A stretch of 64,000 nt of DNA, from the NCBI RefSeq assembly GCF_022095675.1, contig NZ_JAHYSG010000072.1, positions 1-64,000 on the forward strand, written 5' to 3'. The number at the start of each line of letters is the position of its first letter. The stretch's first letter is position 1. The translations under genes were made by a program, and so were the position numbers. The stretch is from Dactylosporangium sp. AC04546 (lineage in GTDB: Bacteria > Actinomycetota > Actinomycetes > Mycobacteriales > Micromonosporaceae). The notes under the pieces were generated by a model that did not search any database, was not told the origin of the DNA, and worked only from the letters and a program-made list of their open reading frames with translations. Shown here one piece after another: positions 5,644 through 60,630 of this stretch.

Positions 5644-5742
5644 CGCCCGAATCTATGTTCTTGACGGTTGAGGCGCTATGCCGCGCGACGGTCCTCCACG
5701 TGCACGATCTGAAGCAACCGCCCGTCGAGATCCCGGAAAACG

Positions 5743-5773
5743 TTGGACGGTGCTACGGCCCGCCTGCTACATT
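5743..5773 (+). promoter_or_regulatory. Possible sigma-70-type promoter for the GNAT-infA operon
   Basis: TTGGAC at 5743-5748 and TACATT at 5768-5773 resemble -35 and -10 boxes with a 19-base spacer. They lie about 140 bases before the GNAT gene and about 37 bases before a small leader reading frame. Prediction by eye only. Confidence 0.35.
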
Positions 5774-5809
5774 CCTCGCGCCGTGACACTCCCCGAGGAG
5801 GTGAGACCC

Positions 5810-5863
5810 GTGAACGTTGTATCGATGTGGGTGCTCCCCTCGCCGTCACGGGCCGGCCACTGA
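5810..5863 (+). CDS. Possible 17-residue leader peptide
   Basis: A GTG-initiated frame of 17 codons (begins MNVVSMW, ends RAGH) preceded by an excellent ribosome site, GAGGAGG at 5795-5801, with 8 bases of spacing. Its stop lies 52 bases before the GNAT start. Such a strong Shine-Dalgarno in front of so short a frame suggests either a translated upstream ORF that tunes the downstream operon or a chance match. No run of regulatory amino acids is visible, so no attenuation mechanism can be named. Confidence 0.35.
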   Translation: MNVVSMWVLPSPSRAGH

Positions 5864-5915
5864 CGTAGGTGTCGCCGGGAGCGCCCCGACAAGGCGATCC
5901 CGAAAGGCACCAGCT

Positions 5916-6683
5916 ATGAACCCTGTGGAATTCAGCCACACCGTCCTGATCTCGCGCGTCGCGCCCCGCCAATGGCATGCGCTGGAGGACGACCTCGTGG
6001 TCGGCCGCGGCGAGACGTCGACTCGGCCCGATGGGCGGATCTTCGTCAGCATCGACGCCTGGCACGGCGCGGCCTTCGACGCGCTGGTCGAGGCCATGCT
6101 CGCGGCCCTGCCGAGGCCGCTGCACACGGTGGTCGACGAGGCCGACCTCGACCTGACCGCTCAGTGGCAGCGAGCCGGCTTCACGACCCGGCGCCGCGAG
6201 TGGGAGTACGTCGTGCCGACCGACCCGCACGTCACGGGCCTCGACTCGGCGCTGTCGCCGGGCGTGACGATCCAGGCCTTCGGCAGTGCGCAGGAGGCCC
6301 CGCTACGGGCCCTCGACCGCATGATCCGCGACGAGGTCGAGGCCGGCCAGGGATGGCAGGACATGCCGGCCGAGGTGCTGACCACTCCCGTGCTCGATCC
6401 GTCGCGGTACGCCGTGGCGGCACTGGCCGGGCAGTATGTGGGTCTGCTGCGGGTCGCGACGGTGACCCGACGGCCGCGGATAGGACTGATCGCCGTCCGG
6501 GCCGACCACCAACGCCGCGGCATTGCCCGGGCGCTGCTGGCCCACACACTGGGCGCACTGCACCACATCGGCAGGGAAACGGCCTCGGCCGAGGTGACGG
6601 AGTCCAACGTGGCCGCCACGGCGCTGTTCGAGCGCATCGGCGGCCTGCGCGCCGCCAGCAGCCTCGAGCTGGTGCTCCGCTGA
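5916..6683 (+). CDS. GNAT-family N-acetyltransferase
   Basis: A 255-residue protein whose C-terminal half carries the GNAT acetyl-CoA site: [20 protein letters not shown] contains the Q/RxxGxG/A loop (QRRGIA), followed by the NxxAxxLFERIGG motif typical of the family. ATG 5916 fits a GAAAGG site at 5902-5907; an upstream in-frame GTG extension would have a non-conserved Arg-rich tail. Only 2 bases separate its stop from infA, so the two are almost certainly co-translated. The substrate is unknown; ribosomal protein or antibiotic acetylation would fit the partner but is speculation. Confidence 0.82.
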
Positions 6684-50770: not shown

Positions 50771-53700
50771 TCACCAACGGCGCCCTTCTCGAGAGGAAAC
50801 ACCATCGTGTTGAAGAAGCTCGCCACCGCCGTCACCGGCCTGGGCACCGTCGCCGCCGGGGTCGCACTGGCGGTGGGGCCGGCCACGCCGGCCCACGCGG
50901 TCGTGGTCTCCACGGACCCGGTCAAGATCACCGAGCAGGAGCTCGACTTCGGCGGCGACAACTGGCTCGTCGGTGCTCCGACCAACAGCGGCGTCCTGGG
51001 CTGGGACGTCACCGCCGGTGTGGTCACCCCGATCCTCTCCGGCTACCTCTACATCAACAACGCCGCCGGGACCTGCGCCCGGATGCGACTGGAGACCTTC
51101 GACATCAACCACAACTTCATCGGCTCCGCCAACGGCGGAACGGTCTGCGCGTCCAGTGGCGCCCGGTACGTGTGGCGGGTCCACTTCGACGCTCCGGGCG
51201 ACCCCGACACCACCCACGTGCACGTCATCCTCCAGGTGCAGACCGCCGGTGGCGGGTACACCACGGTCGGGACCGAGGACGAGGACTTCTGACCCCCGAC
51301 CTGCCGACAGGCGAGCGGCGTCCGGATGGCCGAGCACCCGCAGCAGCCGCGCCGAGCGCTGCCACGCCGTCCGCGCCGCATCGACATCACCGAGCGCCGC
51401 GTACGCGTCACCGAGGTGCTCGTTGACCACCGCCTCCAGGTACCGGTCGGCCTGCTCACCCAGCAGGCGGGCCGCCCGGTGGAAGCCGGCGACCGCCTGC
51501 CGGTGGTCGCCGCTGCGGTACCAGGCATAGCCGAGGGTGTCCCACGTCATCCCCTCGCCGTGCACGTCACCGATCCGTTGCTGGATGGCGATGGCCTGCC
51601 GGCAGCGCAGTACCGCCTGGTCGTGCTCACCGAGATGGGCGTGATGCCAGCCCAGCGCGTTCAGGGCCAGTGTCCGGCCGTGGTCGTGCCCGGCCGTGTC
51701 GAACAGGTCGAGGGCCCGCCGGTCGTCCGCCAGGGCCCGCCGGGGCAGACCCTGGCGGGCCGAGACCCGGGCGAGACCGCGGTAGGCGAAGCCCTGACCA
51801 GCGACGTCACCGAGCCGCCGGAACGCGGCCAGGGCGGACCGGAGATGGGTGCGCGCCTCGTCGAAGCGGGCCAGCCAGGTGTACCCGCGTGCCAGGCCGC
51901 ACCGCGCGTGGGCGAGCGCGACGTCGTCGGCGAGACGCTCCGCGGACGCCAGCGCGATCCGGTGGACGTCGACCTCCTCGTGCCAGTTGCCGCGCTGGTC
52001 GAGCAGGTGCACCAACGCCCATGCCAGCTGCCAGGCGTGCCGATGGAAGCCGGCGGTCGGCGCGAACCGTACCGCCGCCGTCAACACCTGGTGCTCGGCG
52101 GTGAGCCAGGCCAGCGCGGCCCGGTGGTCGGCGGGCGCCTCGACGCGCACGCCCGGCCGAACCGGCGGCAGGGTCAGCGGGTCCCGCAGCGGCTGGAGCC
52201 GGCGGTCGGCCGCGTGCGCGGTGTGCAGGTAGTGGTCGAGGAGGCGCTCCATCGCCGGCTGCCGGTCGGGTACCGAGACCCGCTCGATGACGTACAGGCG
52301 AATCAGGTCATGCATCCGGTACCGGCGCGGCGGGTCCTCGGTGAGCAGGTTGGAGTCGACCAGCTCCCGCAGGACCGGGCTCAGCGACTCCGGGTCGGCG
52401 CCGGCCATGCTCGCGGCCCCGGAGCGCCCGATGTCCGGGCCCGGTGCCGAGCCGAGGTAGCCGAGCAACCGGATCGCCCGCGGCGACAGCGCCCGAACCG
52501 AACTGGCCATCACCGCCCGGAGGCCGACCTGGAGGTCGCCGGGGTCGAGCACGTCGAGCCGGGTCCGCGGGTCGCCCAGCTCGGCGGCGAGCGCCGCCAG
52601 CTCCTCGGTCGGGCGCCGGCCGGTGGCCGCCCGCGCCGCCACGACACCCAACGCCAGCGGTAGCCCCGCGCAGTGCGGCAGCAGGGCCGCCAGCGCCTCG
52701 ACGGGTCCCAGCCGCGTCCGGAGCAGCTCGAGCGCCTCGGCATCCGTCATCAGATCCAGCGGTACCGGGCGCGCGCCGTGCACGGCGACGAGGCCGGTCA
52801 GCCGGTGCCGGCTGGTGACGATGACGGCACACCCGGGCGATCCGGGAAGCAGCGGGATGACCTGGGCACTGTCGCGGGCGTTGTCCAGCACGACGAGCAT
52901 GCGCCGGCCGGCCACCAGGCTGCGGAACATGCCGGCCTGGCAGTCGGGTTCGACGGGCAGCGCCTCGACCGGCACGCCCAGCGCGGCCAGCAGCGAGCGG
53001 ATCGCTGCCGGCGGCTCCACCGGCTCGCCGGACGGGTCGAAGCCGCGGAGGTTGACGTACAACTGGCCGTCGGGAAACCGTTCGGACTGCAGATGCGCCC
53101 AGTGCAGCGCCAGCCAGGTCTTGCCGATGCCGCCGGCGCCGCTGATCGCCACGATCGCCACCGCGTTGCCGCGCACCGCGTCCGTCATCTCGCCGAGTTG
53201 GCGCACCCGGCCGACGAACGGCACCGGCGGCGGGGGCAGCTGGCGCGGCACCGGCCCCGCGACGGCACCCGCCACCGTCAGGCCCGGATCGGCCCGGAGG
53301 ATGTGGTCGAACGTACGGCGCAGCGCCTCGCCGGGTTCGATACCCAGCTCCGTGGCCAGCCGCCGGCGCAGCTGGTCGTAGCGGGCCAGTGCCTCGGCCT
53401 GCCGGCCGCACCGGTACAGGGCCAGCAGCAGCTGGCTGGCGAGGTGCTCGTCGAGCGGATCGCGCTCGGCGCGGGCGAGCAGCCCGTCGAGGACCGCCGC
53501 GTGGTGGCCCAGCCGCAGCGCCAGCTCGTCCCGGCCGCGTTCGGCCGCCCGCCGGCGGTGGTCCCAGTCGGCCCGGATCCCGTTCAGCCATGGCGTGTCC
53601 AGCGTGCCGAAGGCGTCCCCGGCCCACAGCGCCAGCGCCTCTTCGAACCGGTCGAGCGCCCGCTGCTGCTCCGCGTCGGCTTGCGCCTGCCTGACCAGGT

Positions 53701-54028
53701 GGTCGAACCGGTGCGCGTCGATCGCCAGCGGGTCGACCTCGATCAGGTACCCGCCGTTGCGGCGTACCAGCTCGGCGCCCACCGGTGCCAGCAGCTGCTT
53801 CAGCCGTGACACGCAGCTGTACAGGGAGTCGCGCGGCCGACGAGGCAACCGCTCGCCCCAGGCGCGCTCCAGCAGCGCCTCGACCGGTACCGGCCGGTTG
53901 GGCTCGACCAGCAGCACGGCCAGTACGCATCGTTGCCGGCGGTGGCCGAGGTCCACCGCACGGCCACCGTCGTGACGCACCACGACGTCGCCGAGCAGCT
54001 GGATCCGCAGCTGACCGTCCGTCTTCAT
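50771..54028 (-). CDS. AfsR/SARP-type BTAD regulator with NB-ARC and TPR domains
   Basis: A 1085-codon frame. Residues about 8-95 are an OmpR-type winged helix (QRCVLAVLLVEPN, RDSLYSCVSRLKQLL), about 98-245 the bacterial transcriptional activator domain, about 265-560 an NB-ARC ATPase with P-loop AISGAGGIGKTWLAL (near 294) and LVVLDNARDS, and about 640-920 TPR repeats (FAYRGLARVSARQGLPRRALADD). Homology ends around LGHPDAARLSAG (about residue 913, base 51295). The last 170 codons run antisense through the secreted-protein gene at 50807-51292 and do not look like protein; the native stop appears lost. Likely an activator of an unlinked or neighbouring pathway. Confidence 0.85.
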   Translation of the reverse strand: MKTDGQLRIQLLGDVVVRHDGGRAVDLGHRRQRCVLAVLLVEPNRPVPVEALLERAWGERLPRRPRDSLYSCVSRLKQLLAPVGAELVRRNGGYLIEVDPLAIDAHRFDHLVRQAQADAEQQRALDRFEEALALWAGDAFGTLDTPWLNGIRADWDHRRRAAERGRDELALRLGHHAAVLDGLLARAERDPLDEHLASQLLLALYRCGRQAEALARYDQLRRRLATELGIEPGEALRRTFDHILRADPGLTVAGAVAGPVPRQLPPPPVPFVGRVRQLGEMTDAVRGNAVAIVAISGAGGIGKTWLALHWAHLQSERFPDGQLYVNLRGFDPSGEPVEPPAAIRSLLAALGVPVEALPVEPDCQAGMFRSLVAGRRMLVVLDNARDSAQVIPLLPGSPGCAVIVTSRHRLTGLVAVHGARPVPLDLMTDAEALELLRTRLGPVEALAALLPHCAGLPLALGVVAARAATGRRPTEELAALAAELGDPRTRLDVLDPGDLQVGLRAVMASSVRALSPRAIRLLGYLGSAPGPDIGRSGAASMAGADPESLSPVLRELVDSNLLTEDPPRRYRMHDLIRLYVIERVSVPDRQPAMERLLDHYLHTAHAADRRLQPLRDPLTLPPVRPGVRVEAPADHRAALAWLTAEHQVLTAAVRFAPTAGFHRHAWQLAWALVHLLDQRGNWHEEVDVHRIALASAERLADDVALAHARCGLARGYTWLARFDEARTHLRSALAAFRRLGDVAGQGFAYRGLARVSARQGLPRRALADDRRALDLFDTAGHDHGRTLALNALGWHHAHLGEHDQAVLRCRQAIAIQQRIGDVHGEGMTWDTLGYAWYRSGDHRQAVAGFHRAARLLGEQADRYLEAVVNEHLGDAYAALGDVDAARTAWQRSARLLRVLGHPDAARLSAGRGSEVLVLGPDRGVPATGGLHLEDDVHVGGVGVARSVEVDPPHVPGATGRADRSAVGGADEVVVDVEGLQSHPGAGPGGVVDVEVAGEDRGDHTGGDVPAQDAAVGRSTDEPVVAAEVELLLGDLDRVRGDHDRVGRRGRPHRQCDPGGDGAQAGDGGGELLQHDGVSSREGRRW
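50807..51292 (+). CDS. Secreted hypothetical protein
   Basis: A 161-residue exported protein. GTG 50807 is preceded by GAGAGGAAA; residues 1-31 are a Sec signal (LKKLATAVTGLGTVAAGVALAVG, cleavage after AHA). The mature part is all-beta, with GYLYINNAAGTCARMRLETFD and HVHVILQVQTAGGGY, plus two Cys likely bonded. No family recognised. The whole gene lies antisense to the 3' extension of the AfsR-like frame. Confidence 0.75.
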   Translation: MLKKLATAVTGLGTVAAGVALAVGPATPAHAVVVSTDPVKITEQELDFGGDNWLVGAPTNSGVLGWDVTAGVVTPILSGYLYINNAAGTCARMRLETFDINHNFIGSANGGTVCASSGARYVWRVHFDAPGDPDTTHVHVILQVQTAGGGYTTVGTEDEDF

Positions 54029-54278
54029 CCGGTCACGGTAGGTCTGGGGCTACGCCGCAGCTAGCTCGAACTACCACCAGCGGTTGTCGGATTCCGTAGG
54101 TCGCCGGTCGTCCTCGTGTCTGTATGGATGTACCCCGGGCCATACTTTCGGTCCCGATCCGGCACCCACCGCTCCATTGCGCAGGTCGCGGGCTCGATGC
54201 CATTGTCCTGTGATCGTTGATGTTGGTGGATTGGGACCGTTCACCGTGGGGCCGCAGGTCGAGGAGGGGACGTGACGG

Positions 54279-54977
54279 ATGCCCGACCGGGACGAGGCCT
54301 CCGGCGGCTCCGACCGCCAACCGCGACGGCTCTGGTGGTCAGTGCGGCGTCACCGGCAGGGCGCGGGGAGTCCGCCACCCGCGGCGGGCACGCCGCCGGC
54401 GGGCAGCGCACCGCCTGCGGGGAGCGGGCCGGCCGGGCCCGGCCAAACCGTCATCGACGATCAGGAACCGCCGCAAACGCCAGATCCGGCAGCCGTCGAA
54501 CGGGTCGCGACAGCCGAGGCCGCCCAGGCGCTCGGCGAGCAACACCGAGACGCGCCACAACGCCCCCGCCCGCCCGGGCGGCATCGAGCTAGGACGGACG
54601 GAGCACCGCAGATGAGCAAACAGGAAGACCTCTTGCGGATCATCACCGGGATCCGGCGCGCGATCCCCGAGCTGCACGGCGTCATGATCGCTTCGACGGA
54701 CGGCCTGTCCATCGCGCACGACTTCCCGGAGGCCGAGGCCGAGAGCGTCGCCGCCATGGCCGCCACGGCGCTCGGCCTCGGCCAGCGCATCACCGAGCGG
54801 GCCCACCTCGGCGGCCTCATGGAGACCGTGGCCCGGGGCGAGTACGGGTACATGGTGGTCTACGGCGCCGGCCAGAACGCCGTGCTCGTCATGTCGGGCC
54901 CGACCAACTCCAACCTCGGCCTCATGCGCATCGAGGCCCGCTCCGCCTCCGCCCAGATCAGCCAGGTCCTCAAGTAG
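54279..54977 (+). CDS. Roadblock/LC7-domain protein with Pro-rich N-terminus
   Basis: A 232-residue frame. Residues 1-110 are a low-complexity Pro/Gly/Arg region; residues about 112-232 are a roadblock/LC7 domain (LLRIITGIRRAIPELHGVMIASTDGLSIAHD, AALGLGQRITER, YMVVYGAGQNAVLVMSG). GAGGAGGGG (54262-54270) supports ATG 54279, but an internal ATG at 54612 with GGAG upstream would give a minimal 121-residue domain, and third-position GC is lower before it. Roadblock proteins are GTPase-activating or scaffold partners of MglA/Cvn-type GTPases. 17 bases precede the protoglobin gene. The 250 bases upstream show no other clear feature. Confidence 0.85.
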   Translation: MPDRDEASGGSDRQPRRLWWSVRRHRQGAGSPPPAAGTPPAGSAPPAGSGPAGPGQTVIDDQEPPQTPDPAAVERVATAEAAQALGEQHRDAPQRPRPPGRHRARTDGAPQMSKQEDLLRIITGIRRAIPELHGVMIASTDGLSIAHDFPEAEAESVAAMAATALGLGQRITERAHLGGLMETVARGEYGYMVVYGAGQNAVLVMSGPTNSNLGLMRIEARSASAQISQVLK

Positions 54978-54994
54978 ACAACGGAGCCTGTCAT

Positions 54995-55639
54995 ATGGAG
55001 AGCACCCACCTCGTCGCTCGCGCGGCCATGGAGCAGATGCCGCCGGAGTTCCGGTTCAAGGCCGAGGACGGAGCGCTGATCCACAAGTACCGCGACGTCC
55101 TGCTGTCGCTCGAACCGGCGTTCGTCGACGGCTTCTACAGCCACGTGTACGCCCACCCGCCCACGGCCGGCATCTTCCGCGAGGGCGAGCGGCCGGAGCG
55201 GGAGGCCACCCTCGCGAACTGGTGGCGGCGTACGGTCAACGGCCCCCTCGACGACGACTATTTCGCGTGGATGGCCATGGTCGGGCTGGTCCACGTCCTG
55301 CGCGGGGTGACCAACCCGATGATGCTGGCGATGAGCGACTACATCGTGATGTTCGTGTTCGAGCACCTGCCCGAGCTCGCGGCCGGGTCCGTCTCGGCGG
55401 GCGACCACTCGGACTCGCCGCTGGAGGCCGCGCAGGCCAGCGCCGAGGTGTTCGAGCTCAGCTCGGCGTTCTTCCGCCTGGGCGCCACGGTCGGCGCGGT
55501 GATCGCCCACGGGTACGACGAGGCCGTCGCCTCCGCGATGTTCAACATCGCCGGCATGCAGAAGACGCTGCTGGAGCGCCTGCGTGACCAGGAGGTCTCG
55601 GCGGCGCTGCAGACGGCCCGCAAGGAGCTGCAGGGCTGA
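54995..55639 (+). CDS. Protoglobin-domain haem protein
   Basis: A 214-residue protein. Residues about 22-130 fit the protoglobin/globin-coupled-sensor fold: DGALIHKYRDVLLSLEPAFVDGFYSHVYAHP, LANWWRRTVNGPLDDDYFAWMAMVGLVHVLRG. H100 in GLVHVLRG is the candidate proximal haem ligand. The remaining C-terminal helices (about 150-214) may serve as dimer or output helix. There is no kinase or cyclase output domain, so signalling must pass to a partner; the roadblock gene 17 bases upstream is the obvious one. Gas (O2, NO, CO) or redox sensing is inferred. Confidence 0.78.
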   Translation: MESTHLVARAAMEQMPPEFRFKAEDGALIHKYRDVLLSLEPAFVDGFYSHVYAHPPTAGIFREGERPEREATLANWWRRTVNGPLDDDYFAWMAMVGLVHVLRGVTNPMMLAMSDYIVMFVFEHLPELAAGSVSAGDHSDSPLEAAQASAEVFELSSAFFRLGATVGAVIAHGYDEAVASAMFNIAGMQKTLLERLRDQEVSAALQTARKELQG

Positions 55640-55648
55640 GGACGTGCT

Positions 55649-55678
55649 GCCGGCGGCAGGAGCGGGGCCGCCGCCGGC
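55649..55678. terminator. Bidirectional hairpin between the two roadblock operons
   Basis: GCCGGCGGC (55649-55657) pairs perfectly with GCCGCCGGC (55670-55678) around a 12-base loop, 10 bases after the protoglobin stop and directly before the convergent roadblock stop. GC-rich stem without T-run. Confidence 0.6.
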
Positions 55679-55679
55679 C

Positions 55680-56084
55680 TCAGCGCGGCGAGTAGGGCAC
55701 CAGCGGTACCAGTTGCTCGGCCGTCACCCGGCTCTGCTGCAGCAGCAGGCCGAGGTTGACCTTGGCGTCCGCGGTGACGGCCATGACGTGCCGGTCCGCG
55801 ATGGCCAGCACGCACACCACGGCCTCGGTGCTGCGGATGACGCAGTCGATGAAGACCCCGCCGCCGACGGTCGCGCCGACCTGGCTGCCGAGGGCGAGGA
55901 TCGTCGCCGACAGCGCGGCCTCGTGCGGCTCGCTCTGCGCGCGGTCCCCCTCGAACATGGGCAGGCCGTCGCTGGTCGCGAGCATGACCTGCCGGACCAG
56001 GGGTACCTCGGCCCGCAGGTTCGCCAGCACCTGCGCGACCTGCCCGGTCGAAGCGGGATGGTGGCGGCGCGTAGCAGGTGTCAT
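55680..56084 (-). CDS. Roadblock/LC7-domain protein
   Basis: A 134-residue single-domain roadblock protein: VAQVLANLRAEVPLVRQVMLATSDGLPMFE, ALSATILALGSQVGATVGGG, VVCVLAIADRHVMAVTADAKVNLGLLL. It overlaps the GTPase gene by ATGA (56081-56084), the usual CvnB-CvnD-like partnership. It could act as GAP or cofactor for that GTPase, and could pair with the other roadblock protein of this locus. Confidence 0.88.
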   Translation of the reverse strand: MTPATRRHHPASTGQVAQVLANLRAEVPLVRQVMLATSDGLPMFEGDRAQSEPHEAALSATILALGSQVGATVGGGVFIDCVIRSTEAVVCVLAIADRHVMAVTADAKVNLGLLLQQSRVTAEQLVPLVPYSPR

Positions 56085-56698
56085 TTCGACCCTCCGGTCT
56101 GGGCCACGGGCGCGTCCTCACCCTGCCGGACTGGCAGTGACGTGTGCCGGGCGATCTCGAGGAAGAGCGTGAGCAGCACCTCGATCGCGGAGGAGCGGTC
56201 GCGCGGGTCACAGGTGACGACGGGTACCTCCGGGTCGACGCCCAGGACCCGGGCGAGCCGGGTCAGGTCGGTGCCGGGGCCGGCACGGTTGACCGCGACG
56301 ACGTGCGGGAGTCCCGCCCCGGCGGCCAGGGTGGCGTCGATGACGACCGCCTCCCGCCACGTCTCGGGGTCGCTGGCGTCGACGAGCAGGACGTACCCGA
56401 GGGCACCCTGCGCCAGGATGCGCCACATGAAGTCGAATCGGGCCTGGCCAGGGATACCGAAGAGGAGCAGTTCCACGCGGCCGGTGTCCGCTCCCGCGTC
56501 GATGGCGAACCGGCCGAAGTCCATCGCGACGGTCGTCGTGGCCTTCGTCTCGGTGTCGTCGCTGGGGACGGTCTCCGTCGACACGACGCCGTCGTCGGCG
56601 ACGCTGCGGATGAACGTCGTCTTGCCCGCCCCGTAGGCGCCGGCCACGACGACCTTGATCGAGGTCGGGGGTGTTGCGTGCATGTTCTGGCTCGCCAT
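56081..56698 (-). CDS. Small Ras/MglA-like GTPase (CvnD type)
   Basis: A 205-residue GTPase. P-loop GAYGAGKT is at residues 20-27, a Thr-rich switch I at 54-56 (TTTVAMDFG), the G3 region is FGIPGQ (80-85) in place of DxxGQ, as in CvnD relatives, and G4 is VNRA (137-139) instead of NKxD. FDFMWRILAQGALGYVLLVDASDP follows. It begins TGATG on the stop of the upstream gene and overlaps the roadblock gene at its end, so the three are one translational unit. Confidence 0.88.
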   Translation of the reverse strand: MASQNMHATPPTSIKVVVAGAYGAGKTTFIRSVADDGVVSTETVPSDDTETKATTTVAMDFGRFAIDAGADTGRVELLLFGIPGQARFDFMWRILAQGALGYVLLVDASDPETWREAVVIDATLAAGAGLPHVVAVNRAGPGTDLTRLARVLGVDPEVPVVTCDPRDRSSAIEVLLTLFLEIARHTSLPVRQGEDAPVAQTGGSK

Positions 56699-57600
56699 CA
56701 GAGGTTCTTCAGCCGATCGATGATGCGCCGCAGGATGTCGTTGCCGACGACCGCGGGGGCGCCGAGCGGTGTCCCGGCGGCCGTCGACGCCGCCTTGCGC
56801 CGCAGCTCGGCGAGCTCGCCGGCCAGGGCCTCGTGGCCGTCTTCGCCGGGCTGGTCGCGCAGCTCGGCGATGCCGGCCAGCGAGGCTCCGGGAACGCGCT
56901 TGGGCCAGCCGGCGGTCGGCGAAGACACCGGCGAGGAGACCGGCGAAGTGGCCGCCGGGCGTGCCTCGGGCTGGGGGGCGAGGACCGTGCGTGGGCGTGC
57001 CTCGGGCTTTGGGGCGAGGACCGGGCGTGCCCCGGGCCCGGGGGCGAGGACCGGGCAGTGCTCCGCGCCCGCCACTACGACGCCGCGGGTCCGCAGCACC
57101 TTCGCCGCGGCGGGCCAGGCGCGCTCGGCGGCGACCGCAGTGAACCCGCCCAGCAGCATGGCCCGCACGACGCGCCACTCGTCGTGGTCGAAGACCGCCT
57201 GCTCGCCGGGGCCGGGCCCCGGGCCGAGGACGAGCCGCGCGTGCGCGTCGATCCAGGAGTACGGGACGGTCGCGGCACCGGACACGGCGGCGTCGCAGAC
57301 GGCGGCGACCTCGGCCACCGGCGCGCGCATCGGCGCCCGCGGCTGCCCGAGCAGCTCCGGCGTCGCCGGGACGGTCGCGGGGTCCGTCGCGGTGCCGGCC
57401 GCGACCAGCAACGCCTGGAGGTCGTGGGCGAGGCCCCGCACACATTCGGTACCGCCGCAGATGAGCCCGACGACGTACGCGTCGGCGACCACGAGCCACA
57501 GCGGCCGCGCCGGATCGGGAGCGATGACGTTCGGCAGCGGCGAGGCGGCGGCCCGGCGGAGCAGGCTACTGAGCGCAGACCTCGGGCGACTTTCCGTCAC
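56698..57600 (-). CDS. Hypothetical protein of the GTPase operon (Pro/Ala-rich linker)
   Basis: A 300-residue protein. Residues about 20-130 form a globular part (ARPLWLVVADAYVVGLICGGTECVRGLAHDLQALL, DAHARLVLGPG), then a Pro/Ala linker with three near-repeats of VLAPxPxARP (DNA about 56960-57060), then a C-terminal helix pair ending NDILRRIIDRLKNL. GTG 57600 is chosen with GAGG 9 bases upstream; GTG 57630 is an alternative. No family recognised. Overlap with the GTPase start suggests it is a partner, perhaps an effector or exchange factor (inference). Confidence 0.65.
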   Translation of the reverse strand: MTESRPRSALSSLLRRAAASPLPNVIAPDPARPLWLVVADAYVVGLICGGTECVRGLAHDLQALLVAAGTATDPATVPATPELLGQPRAPMRAPVAEVAAVCDAAVSGAATVPYSWIDAHARLVLGPGPGPGEQAVFDHDEWRVVRAMLLGGFTAVAAERAWPAAAKVLRTRGVVVAGAEHCPVLAPGPGARPVLAPKPEARPRTVLAPQPEARPAATSPVSSPVSSPTAGWPKRVPGASLAGIAELRDQPGEDGHEALAGELAELRRKAASTAAGTPLGAPAVVGNDILRRIIDRLKNL

Positions 57601-57975
57601 GGCGTGTACCTCGGCCTCAATGGAGACCACCGCGGCGCCGTTCTGGCCGGGCGTTCGTCACGTCTTCTCCTCAACCTGTGGACATCCCCGCGTGACTGAA
57701 TTCCCGGACGGTGCGACATTCGATCAAAGGACATTGACATCAGGTCCGCCGCCAGCGCAAGGGCGCGGCCGGTCAGGCCCGCGACTCGGTCGGCGCCGGA
57801 CGTGGGCCGAAAGTATGGGCGCGGCGCATTCGCAAGGACATCACCGGAATCGCACCGGCGAACCGCACGGCGTCCACCCGGAGCGCTCGCGTCCGCACAC
57901 GCCTTGACGTCGCCGAACCGTGTGGTGAACTGTCGTGTCGGGTTCGTCGTGTTCGTCGTTGAGGGCAGGCGTTTG
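57601..57975. other. Intergenic region, no gene seen
   Basis: 375 bases between divergent genes. GC is lower from about 57660 to 57760, and a TTGACA occurs at 57734-57739 without a convincing -10 partner. It presumably carries the two divergent promoters. A CCGGTG...CCGG hairpin near 57845-57872 resembles part of a cobalamin aptamer but lacks the B12 box. Confidence 0.4.
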
Positions 57976-58452
57976 ATGACCGTGGGCTTCGGCTTCCTTG
58001 CCGGCCTGGCCGTGCTGTTCCTGGTGCTCGCGGTGGTCGCCGGATTCCTCGCCGGCCGGCTCGCCAGGGCGCAGGGCCACGCCGGTCGGCCGGTCGACGG
58101 CTGGGAGGCCGTCGAGGACGCCAAGGCCGCGGGCAGCGAGCGGGAGCGGCGGCTGCGGGCCGAGGTCGCGGAGCTGCGGGCCGCGCTGGTGAACGTCGCC
58201 GACCGCAAGGACGCCGAGATGGGCCGCCTGGAGACCGCGGCGATCGAGGCCCTCGAGTCGACCAACACGGCGTACGGGGAGCGCATCGCGCTGCTCGAGG
58301 ACGCGCTGCGCGCCACGGCGTCGGTGGTACAGGAGCAGGACCTGCAACTGGCCGAGCAGCAGCACCGCATCGACCGCCTGCGCTCGGCGCTGGCCGAGCG
58401 CGACCGCCTGCTCGCCGAGCACCCGGTCCAGGCGCGCGACCGCGGGGTCTGA
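57976..58452 (+). CDS. Membrane-anchored coiled-coil protein
   Basis: A 158-residue protein: one N-terminal membrane helix (residues about 4-28, FLAGLAVLFLVLAVVAGFLAG), then an unbroken charged helix with heptad pattern from about residue 50 to 150 (LRAEVAELRAALVNVADRK, LEDALRATASVVQEQDLQLAEQQHRIDRL). ATG 57976 is preferred over an upstream extension. Resembles small scaffold proteins; no specific family. Confidence 0.72.
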   Translation: MTVGFGFLAGLAVLFLVLAVVAGFLAGRLARAQGHAGRPVDGWEAVEDAKAAGSERERRLRAEVAELRAALVNVADRKDAEMGRLETAAIEALESTNTAYGERIALLEDALRATASVVQEQDLQLAEQQHRIDRLRSALAERDRLLAEHPVQARDRGV

Positions 58453-58496
58453 CCAGGGCTCAGCTCCGGGGAAAGAATTCGGTCTCGGGGCGCGCG

Positions 58497-59507
58497 TCAG
58501 TTGTCCGGGTTGCCGTCGAGGGCGGCCCGCTCCGCCGGCGACAGGCCCGCCACGGCGGCCTCGCGGGTCGCGGCCAGCTGCTTCTCGAGCTCGGCGATCC
58601 GGGCGGCCTGCCGTGCGAGCAGGCCCGTCACGTCGGCGGACCGCTCGTCGATCCGGGCCAGGATCACGGCGACGTCGAAGTTGCCGCTGCCGGCCTGGGC
58701 GAGCGCGGTCAGCGCGGTGAGCATGTCCTGCTCGCGCAGCGCGGACGCGGCCAGCGCCGCCTCGATGGCGCCGAGACGCGCGATGACCTGCTTGAACGGG
58801 GGCGGGAAGTGGAACCGGTCGCTGGGTCGGCCCGTGTCCGGCGTGTTGGGGTCCATCTGGGCGGCGATCCACTCCCAGATGTCCTTCTCCTGTTCCTCGC
58901 TGAGCGCCATGAACAGCCTCCTGGTGGTGACGGCGGTGAGCGGAACATTGGCCACGGCGGCCCGCATGATCTGCAGCAGCCGCTTGAGCGTCCGCTGCAT
59001 GAGCGGCGTTGCGAGGGTGTCTCGCCAGAACTCGTAGTGGGTGTGCCACAGCACGGTGTCCGTGCTGGCGATGACGCCCGCCTCCGGGTGCAGCGAGTCG
59101 TACCGCCGCTTGACCTTGCCGTCCGGCGTGAAGTTGACCGCCCGGAGCGCGCCCAGCTCAGGGTCACGCGCCTGCATCTGCGCCACGATCATGTTGTTGT
59201 GCCGGATCCACGCCGCCCGGCCGCCGCGCGGCCAGTTGTCCGGGCCGTCCACCGCCGCGGAACGGTCGTCGATGGCGTTGCGGTCCCGGGCCTGCCGGGC
59301 CGAATAGTCCTCCCGTGAGCTGCCCACGTTGGCGGTGCGCGGCGGGTGGAACCGGCCGATGCGAACCAGGTCGGTCAGGCCGCAGTGATACCCGCCGCCT
59401 TCGAGGTGGTCCTGATCCGGCAACATGCCGAAGTCGGCCACCGGGTTGCCGGTGATGGCGGCGGCATCCCGGCGGAATTGGTCGAGGTCCGGCGACTTGA
59501 CGGCCAC
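58497..59507 (-). CDS. Phage-type M15-like peptidase domain with coiled-coil tail
   Basis: A 336-residue protein. Residues about 30-165 match a phage-associated hydrolase domain: GGGYHCG, DYSARQARDRN with Asp, a FTPDGKVKRRYDSL strand and HTHYEFWRD, giving the His-Asp-HxH zinc pattern of M15/DD-peptidase-fold proteins. Residues about 200-330 are helical and partly coiled coil. GTG 59507 follows GAGGAGG. No other phage gene is nearby, so this is a domesticated or stray cargo gene. Peptidoglycan or other peptide hydrolysis is inferred. Confidence 0.6.
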   Translation of the reverse strand: MAVKSPDLDQFRRDAAAITGNPVADFGMLPDQDHLEGGGYHCGLTDLVRIGRFHPPRTANVGSSREDYSARQARDRNAIDDRSAAVDGPDNWPRGGRAAWIRHNNMIVAQMQARDPELGALRAVNFTPDGKVKRRYDSLHPEAGVIASTDTVLWHTHYEFWRDTLATPLMQRTLKRLLQIMRAAVANVPLTAVTTRRLFMALSEEQEKDIWEWIAAQMDPNTPDTGRPSDRFHFPPPFKQVIARLGAIEAALAASALREQDMLTALTALAQAGSGNFDVAVILARIDERSADVTGLLARQAARIAELEKQLAATREAAVAGLSPAERAALDGNPDN

Positions 59508-59667: not shown

Positions 59668-60630
59668 CTACGGGGCCAGCACGATCCGGCCGAACACCTC
59701 GCCGGCGTCCATCTTCTGGTGCGCCAGCACAGCGCGTTGCAGCGGCAGGACTTCGTGGACCACCGTGTGGAGCTCGCCACGGGCCGCGGCGGCGAACTGG
59801 GCCGTCCGCACGGCGCGCCGGGCGGGCTCGGGAACCGTCGCGGCGCTGAAGGTGGCGACGGACATCGACTTCTGGAACGCGGCCGTCAGCCTCGTGCCGA
59901 AGTCGGCCGGAGGCTGGCCCCCGACCGCGCCGACGACCACGAGCCGGCCGTTGGGATTGAGCCTGTCGATGAACGAGGGCAGGTCGCCGCCCGCTACGAC
60001 GTCGATGATGACATCGAAGCCGGTGGGATCGGCCGGCCCTCCTGCTCCCGAGCGGTCCAGCACGTGGGTCGCGCCGAGGTCGCGCAGCCGACGGCCACGC
60101 TCGGGGGAGGAGGTGGTGACCGCCACGGCGCCGGCACCGTCGCGGGCCGCGAGCTGGACCGTCATGATCCCTATGCTGCCGGCGGCGCCGCGCACCAGCA
60201 CGGTCTCGCCCGGCTTGAGATGAGCATGGGCAAGACCGAAGTGGGCCACGACACCGGAGCTCCCGAGCGTCACGGCCTGGACGGCGGACAGGGCCGCCGG
60301 GAGGGGGAGGATCTCCTCGATCGGCGCGATCGCCTGCTCGACGTAGCCCCCGCCAGTGCCGGTGAACGCCCACACGCGCTGCCCGACCCATACGGGGTCG
60401 ACGCCGTCGCCCACCGCCGTCACCGTCCCCGCCACCTCGCCGCCCGGGATGTGACCCTCCCGGAAGCCGTAGGCGGCGAGCGCACCGCTCCGGATCAGGA
60501 CGTCGACGCCTCCGACGCCGATCGCCTCACTGGCGATCAGCACCTGCCCCGGAGCGGGAAAAGGGTCGGGGACGTCGATGACCGCCAGCCCCCCGGGGCC
60601 TCCGAACTCGTCGATCGCGACTGCCTTCAT
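59668..60630 (-). CDS. Quinone oxidoreductase-like zinc-free MDR dehydrogenase
   Basis: A 320-residue medium-chain reductase of the QOR type. The N-terminus has the GroES-like fold (VLIASEAIGVGGVDVLIRSG, GGEVAGTVTAVGDGV), and the NADPH motif is VRGAAGSIG (about residues 150-158), followed by ATHVLDRSG. The Cys/His zinc ligands of alcohol dehydrogenases are missing. ATG 60630 has GGAGG 6 bases upstream. Divergent from a TetR gene across a perfect palindrome, which suggests TetR control, commonly in response to quinones or electrophiles. Confidence 0.9.
   Translation of the reverse strand: MKAVAIDEFGGPGGLAVIDVPDPFPAPGQVLIASEAIGVGGVDVLIRSGALAAYGFREGHIPGGEVAGTVTAVGDGVDPVWVGQRVWAFTGTGGGYVEQAIAPIEEILPLPAALSAVQAVTLGSSGVVAHFGLAHAHLKPGETVLVRGAAGSIGIMTVQLAARDGAGAVAVTTSSPERGRRLRDLGATHVLDRSGAGGPADPTGFDVIIDVVAGGDLPSFIDRLNPNGRLVVVGAVGGQPPADFGTRLTAAFQKSMSVATFSAATVPEPARRAVRTAQFAAAARGELHTVVHEVLPLQRAVLAHQKMDAGEVFGRIVLAP

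Follow-up and report, generated by a model that had tools for sequence, protein, structure and literature searches.

Organization of the locus

We analysed a 64,000-nucleotide (nt) window of Dactylosporangium sp. AC04546 (contig NZ_JAHYSG010000072.1, positions 1 to 64,000), to which all coordinates refer unless another locus is named; the contamination listed for the host assembly is 11.54%, so that this strain is the likely, not the certain, owner of the contig. The window bears one set of six genes, which encode a roadblock/LC7 protein (rb1), a single-domain protoglobin (Pgb), a second roadblock/LC7 protein (rb2), a P-loop GTPase-like protein, a protein of no known family (hyp), and a protein with a hydrophobic stretch and a coiled coil (TMcc). 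The rb1-Pgb pair on the plus strand is convergent with the hyp-GTPase-rb2 operon on the minus strand, in which, going by the coordinates, the hyp and GTPase genes overlap by 1 nt and the GTPase and rb2 genes by 4 nt, and TMcc is divergent from hyp (Table 1). Across the loci compared below, a single roadblock subfamily accompanies Pgb in inheritance, and the two genes nearly always form a closely spaced pair; in actinobacteria, Pgb is also co-inherited with TMcc in the same locus, often together with an OmpA-type protein.

Table 1. Genes and sequence features of the Pgb locus in the window.
Feature	Position	Strand	Basis
rb1, roadblock/LC7 protein, 121 aa	54612..54977	+	PF03259 48.7 bits, cut-off 23 (scanned from 54279)
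Pgb, single-domain protoglobin, 214 aa	54995..55639	+	PF11563 64.7 bits, cut-off 25; His100 at proximal haem-ligand position
G+C-rich hairpin between convergent stop codons	55640..55679	no strand	folding energy
rb2, second, divergent roadblock/LC7 protein, 134 aa	55680..56084	-	PF03259 25.1 bits, cut-off 23
P-loop GTPase-like protein, 205 aa	56081..56698	-	PF03029 70.1 bits, cut-off 27
hyp, 300 aa, no known family	56698..57600	-	no Pfam match, no NCBIfam match
TMcc, 158 aa, one hydrophobic stretch and predicted-looking coiled coil	57976..58452	+	profile from other loci
First copy of the shared upstream element, CCATACTTTCGGYCCNNNTCCGGC, directed towards rb1-Pgb	54140..54163	+	
Second copy of the shared upstream element, directed towards hyp-GTPase-rb2	57795..57818	-	

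Association of the protoglobin with rb1

Twenty-three Pgb loci were compared, namely the window and 22 found by Pgb alone, comprising 19 actinobacterial loci (the window, L003-L006, L027, and L056-L068) and four Thermus plasmids; because the loci other than the window were chosen by Pgb only, the counts of neighbouring genes are a fair test. In 21 of the 23 loci, both in Actinomycetota and on Thermus plasmids, the rb1 gene immediately preceded Pgb, the two being separated by -4 to +17 nt. The exceptions were L068, where about 104 residues of Pgb remain, and plasmid pTbrSNM4-1b (L013), from which a roadblock match is absent. Identity to rb1 of the window was 68-71% in four actinobacteria and 51-56% on the three Thermus plasmids with a match, and rb1 was better kept than Pgb, which was 52-57% identical in L003-L006. 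In a tree of 29 roadblock rows, among which the rb2 branches were long, the 18 actinobacterial rb1 proteins (that of the window and 17 others linked to Pgb) formed one group with a support of 96/92. The next branch was composed of two Streptomyces plasmid roadblocks without Pgb nearby, with weak support (88/68), and further out lay the Thermus rb1 proteins, followed by the GTPase-linked roadblocks of Deinococcus.

PF11563 was the only domain found in the 214 aa of Pgb, which has no fused output domain, and its fold was nearest to sensor globins among the matches listed. His100, a residue whose conservation the first-pass annotation had made decisive, was invariant in 24 of 24 aligned Pgb rows and aligned with the conserved His of three solved sensor-globin relatives, where we take it to be the haem ligand. 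By these sequence features, Pgb looks able to hold haem and to sense gases. The link between a protoglobin and a roadblock protein, already drawn in the first-pass annotation, is borne out by the gene order, the identities, and the invariant His100, and the notion that the globin communicates with a roadblock protein is well supported. As separate observations, plasmid pTB1 of Thermus brockianus carries three protoglobin-family genes in one operon (L010 10462-12567), the middle one of which (26.3 bits) has, by eye, Tyr in place of the proximal His; the Pgb of pTbrSNM4-1b (L013 11971-12567) resembles one pTB1 Pgb gene at its start and a second one at its end, an apparent natural cross, and the loss of the roadblock from that plasmid reads as a natural deletion. 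Additionally, in locus L036 of genome G693 (5685-6553), another roadblock gene adjoins one encoding a PAS-domain protein, perhaps a parallel case of a sensor read by a roadblock protein.

The Pgb module has a patchy distribution, and only in the family of a Propionibacteriaceae metagenome-assembled genome (MAG) is it frequent. A scan of the genome collection with Pgb returned four relatives, in Millisia brevis, Gulosibacter, the Propionibacteriaceae MAG, and a Micrococcales MAG, and the plasmid collection yielded four Thermus records with 48-51% identity. Matches were found in 14 of 198 genomes of the Propionibacteriaceae MAG's family and 2 of 199 of the Gulosibacter family (centre genome included in both cases), in 1 of 251 of the Millisia family (Millisia itself), and in 1 of 394 in the survey of the class (the host itself), where only eight candidates were scored per genome. 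The survey of the host family (300 genomes) gave two, the host and L008, a weak and partial match (32% identity), which was excluded from the 23 loci as its 3.3-kb locus had no rb1 match. A further globin match (L002) lies, by eye, within a flavohaemoglobin-like gene. Side-by-side conservation in related genomes, which the first-pass annotation had anticipated, was thus found in more distant bacteria but in no other surveyed genome of the host's own family.

Envelope-related and plasmid-borne neighbours

A TMcc profile built from other loci had a single match among the 536 open reading frames (ORFs) of the window (E = 2.2e-13); this protein has no Pfam match. A profile of the TMcc tail, with the tested locus left out each time, found exactly one ORF in 17 of the 19 actinobacterial loci. 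An OmpA-type gene was present in 15 of these 19 (Pfam-checked in L003 and L006), those without it being the window, L004, L027, and L060. Locus L063 encodes a long protein grouped by BLAST with those of L005 and L065-L067. In several Propionibacteriaceae, an ABC-type ATPase gene adjoins TMcc (Pfam-checked in L056), and in L056 (5637-7190), as likewise in L057 and L060, a tandem ABC-type ATPase gene follows TMcc at the place where some other loci carry the GTPase.

In genome G764, rb1, Pgb, and TMcc are situated on one strand after genes encoding a prepilin peptidase, PilM, a PilN-like protein (without a Pfam match, and named by position and similarity to L038), and PilO, and are followed by a DnaJ gene. 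The remaining 18 actinobacterial loci had no match to PilD, PilM, PilN, or PilO, so that 1 of 19 lies inside a pilus cluster. The pilus cluster of the host is located elsewhere in its genome and includes a pilus ATPase with an MshEN domain (L037 17145-18872), a domain type that binds cyclic di-GMP (c-di-GMP).

The contexts on the Thermus plasmids were taken from annotation, with an incomplete gene table and with domains checked on single examples. A DUF4388 protein and a GTPase were encoded on all four plasmids, an IclR-type regulator and a roadblock protein on three each, an EAL protein after Pgb on three, and an HD-GYP protein on two, the last two being c-di-GMP enzymes. GTPase, roadblock, and Pgb genes stood in one row on three of the four plasmids, with two more protoglobin-type genes between GTPase and roadblock on pTB1. 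Two Deinococcus plasmids (L069 3857-5366 and L070 3929-5366) bear a hypothetical-GTPase-roadblock trio without a globin match, and in L070 a gene encoding a GAF-domain protein is nearby.

The GTPase-like protein, rb2, and hyp

A GTPase gene was located near Pgb in 8 of the 23 loci, namely in the window, Millisia, Gulosibacter, and the Micrococcales MAG, and, by annotation, on each of the four Thermus plasmids. A search with the GTPase of Millisia (E <= 1e-3) gave no match at all in 14 of the 19 actinobacterial genomes holding Pgb and a match in five, one of them weak (G1253, 4.6e-4); this query recovers the window GTPase at 36% identity, more distant GTPases could escape it, and the genomes include some of small size or in fragments (G1166, 1.1 Mb). 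This is the strongest result against GTP hydrolysis as a general output, which would be true at best of a subset of loci including the window. The claim of the first-pass annotation that the signal ends in GTP hydrolysis is not supported as a rule, given these 14 genomes and the presence of TMcc in 17 of 19 loci, but such a step is possible in the window because both operons share an upstream element and because of the GTPase, roadblock, and Pgb row on three Thermus plasmids.

The same query found seven further relatives elsewhere in the host genome (27-34% identity). The window GTPase scored below the cut-offs for Ras (PF00071, 14.4 vs. 21.6 bits) and Arf (17.8 vs. 22.3 bits) and was closest within the set to the Thermus GTPases (9e-27), nearer than to that of Millisia. 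Across seven aligned GTPases, the P-loop and a PGQ motif were kept and the canonical NKxD was absent in all seven, which leaves guanine specificity unproven. Likewise, rb2 was more similar to the Thermus roadblocks (5e-16) than to rb1 (9e-9) and had no match with the second roadblock-like protein of Millisia, which itself lacks a Pfam match and whose Micrococcales MAG homologue reached 23.6 bits against a cut-off of 23. An apparent N-terminal fusion of the Millisia GTPase was rejected, since it came from an open frame that overlaps TMcc; the start of this GTPase lies near L003 9815. The assignment of hyp as a DUF4388 protein was dropped as unsupported: it has no DUF4388 Pfam match, its comparison by hhalign with the Thermus and Deinococcus proteins of this type was not significant (probability 0.2), and a C-terminal likeness was seen by eye only. 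The structure model of hyp was too poor for fold comparison (pLDDT 42.7), and its gene contains three 36-nt repeats (56957-57058) encoding an Ala/Pro-rich stretch.

Gene calls, intergenic elements, and flanking genes

The Pfam searches placed the roadblock, protoglobin, second roadblock, and PF03029 genes where the first-pass annotation had them, with all four scores over their cut-offs; it had differed in the start of rb1 and had overlooked TMcc. The rb1 start is very likely 54612 rather than 54279, since the G+C content of the third codon position drops from 0.98 (54612-54977) to 0.77 in the stretch before it (54279-54611) and the Thermus orthologues are 120-121 aa long; the start at 54279 was rejected on these grounds. 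In NCBIfam, rb1, Pgb, rb2, and hyp had no match, and the scores of the GTPase (26.8, cut-off 42.5) and of TMcc (23, cut-off 135) stayed under the threshold; a role as a defence system was discarded after PADLOC returned no match for the six proteins.

The hairpin between the convergent stop codons had a folding energy of -31.8 kcal/mol on each strand (stretches 55636-55690 and 55630-55684), with a z score of -0.69 on the plus strand, no better than shuffled sequences, and of -2.30 on the minus strand. It has no T run, and a terminator scan found no terminator there; this hairpin is what had earlier been read as a shared terminator between the two operons. The 24-base pattern CCATACTTTCGGYCCNNNTCCGGC matches perfectly at just two sites of the 13-Mb genome, each facing one of the two operons; the pattern was derived from these two sites, and this count is thus no independent test. 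Allowing up to three mismatches added one site for this pattern and one for a control pattern, and a 12-base core with up to two mismatches was found twice in the window alone vs. 1.22 expected, which is not above chance. Both copies fall within a 32-nt inverted repeat (81%), which is the longest in 53900-58500. The matching elements are no more than suggestive of co-regulation of the two convergent operons; that the inverted element represents transposon ends is only possible, and no transposase lies between its arms, with TMcc situated outside them.

Directly upstream of rb1 and divergent from it is a gene encoding an AfsR-like regulator with BTAD, NB-ARC, and TPR domains (50771-54028), relatives of which occur in six of six same-genus genomes. 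Around its best relatives in two of these genomes (63% and 60%), there was no tblastn match to any of 16 other window genes within 19.9 kb, and for a recent insertion of the cluster an empty site was not demonstrable.

Comparison with known systems

The closest known systems include globin-coupled sensors and protoglobins of the PF11563 family, such as AfGcHK, HemAT, and the M. acetivorans protoglobin, from which Pgb differs in that it has no fused output domain and has a separate roadblock protein encoded directly upstream. A conservon is defined by the sensor kinase CvnA and the DUF742 protein CvnC beside a roadblock protein and a GTPase. The locus resembles the Streptomyces conservons CvnA-CvnD in combining a roadblock protein, represented there by CvnB5 (structure 3leq), with a small P-loop GTPase of similar kind; in contrast, the window has a globin and a membrane coiled-coil protein, and the GTPase was not found in 14 of 19 actinobacterial holders. 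Pfam detected neither a sensor kinase nor DUF742 in the six genes or in the neighbours at 50771-54028, 58497-59507, and 59668-60588. The earlier picture of a conservon with its kinase replaced by a globin is right about these absences but not about the partner set, which differs.

The MglA-MglB polarity switch, which steers pili, likewise pairs a GTPase with a roadblock protein (adjacent here), and one Pgb locus lies within pilus genes; MglA-MglB differs in that a globin is present here, the GTPase was not found in most holders tested, and the window GTPase falls below the Ras and Arf cut-offs. The Deinococcus trio has the same gene order as hyp-GTPase-rb2 and as the Thermus DUF4388-GTPase-roadblock genes, and its roadblocks are related to rb1, standing just outside it in the tree, but the two loci examined had no globin match.

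Proposed mechanism and alternatives

We put at about an even chance that Pgb senses gas through haem and acts in trans, with a roadblock protein of its own reading its state and interchangeable outputs joined to it. Pgb would bind haem through His100, and O2, NO, CO, or redox state would alter the face it shows to an rb1 dimer; rb1 would be the fixed reader of the globin, handing its state on to the output. That output would be a TMcc/OmpA membrane assembly in most of the actinobacteria seen, with a GTPase and second roadblock added in the window and three other actinobacterial loci, and a GTPase together with c-di-GMP enzymes on the Thermus plasmids. The roadblock protein may thus take over, as a separate molecule acting in trans, the task that falls to a fused output domain in globin-coupled sensors; we know of no earlier globin sensor with a roadblock scaffold as transmitter. 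Tentatively, and somewhat short of an even chance, the pair may be a general unit, a free haem globin read by a dedicated roadblock protein, which plugs into membrane coiled-coil/OmpA proteins, GTPases, or c-di-GMP enzymes and has moved between phyla.

Several observations weigh against this sensor model. Two Streptomyces and two Deinococcus plasmids with an rb1-like roadblock had no Pgb match within about 5-6 kb, so that such roadblocks occur beyond Pgb loci, and it is from gene order only that we infer contact between Pgb and rb1. Ten of the 17 TMcc matches were seeds, each tested by a profile without itself, and seven were not; TMcc was absent by profile from all four Thermus plasmids and was not detected in L063 and L064 (the latter cut by a contig end), the match in L068 lacks the strong hydrophobic stretch of the others, and similarity is easily overrated in a coiled-coil family. 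Four Pgb proteins (L063 and L065-L067) lack the stretch before Gly64 and the common Tyr48, and the Thermus plasmid loci L011 and L012 encode identical proteins and are not independent.

The model of the first-pass annotation, in which the haem state of Pgb passes through rb1 and rb2 to the GTPase, the switch proper, whose effectors would be hyp and TMcc, would account for the gene row on three Thermus plasmids, for the presence of a GTPase and another roadblock-like protein beside rb1, Pgb, and TMcc in Millisia, Gulosibacter, and the Micrococcales MAG, and for the upstream element common to both window operons. We nevertheless hold it to be rather unlikely, given that the GTPase is near Pgb in so few loci and unmatched in most actinobacterial holders, that the window and Millisia differ in rb2 and GTPase, and that NKxD is missing throughout. 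The neighbourhood of the two operons could also be due to chance, only rb1-Pgb being a unit, as the lack of a close Pgb in the other host-family genomes and the same differences from Millisia might suggest; the recurrence of rb1, Pgb, TMcc, GTPase, and second roadblock in three distant actinobacteria and the matching upstream elements make this very improbable.

By analogy with MglA-MglB, the module might control surface structures, be it type IV pili or a different apparatus of the envelope, according to oxygen or NO. This would fit the pilus gene order in G764, the OmpA-type and TMcc genes, which point to the envelope, the c-di-GMP enzymes on the Thermus plasmids, and the MshEN domain of the host pilus ATPase, but it seems improbable with a single actinobacterial locus inside a pilus cluster and PilM over the cut-off in three of the six actinobacterial holder genomes tested, Gulosibacter having none; the weak PilM matches in Millisia and G693 were set aside as EutJ-like, in a microcompartment context by eye. 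Many single-domain globins are enzymes, and Pgb could itself be an enzyme or scavenger (e.g., in NO dioxygenation or peroxide protection), with rb1 as a mere membrane anchor, in keeping with the membrane protein TMcc in the locus and the flavoprotein genes flanking that of Millisia. Such a role is highly doubtful: the genes common to at least 4 of 21 loci included, by eye and without a systematic search, no obvious reductase partner, the fold of Pgb is nearest to sensor globins, and the c-di-GMP enzymes downstream in Thermus fit signalling better.

Implications

To our knowledge, there is no agreed function for stand-alone protoglobins, and a conserved partner offers a direct handle on them. 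If the sensor model is true, roadblock proteins would extend from helpers of GTPases to readers of sensors, as the actinobacterial holders without a GTPase match suggest, and gas sensing would be tied to the cell envelope, pili, and c-di-GMP.

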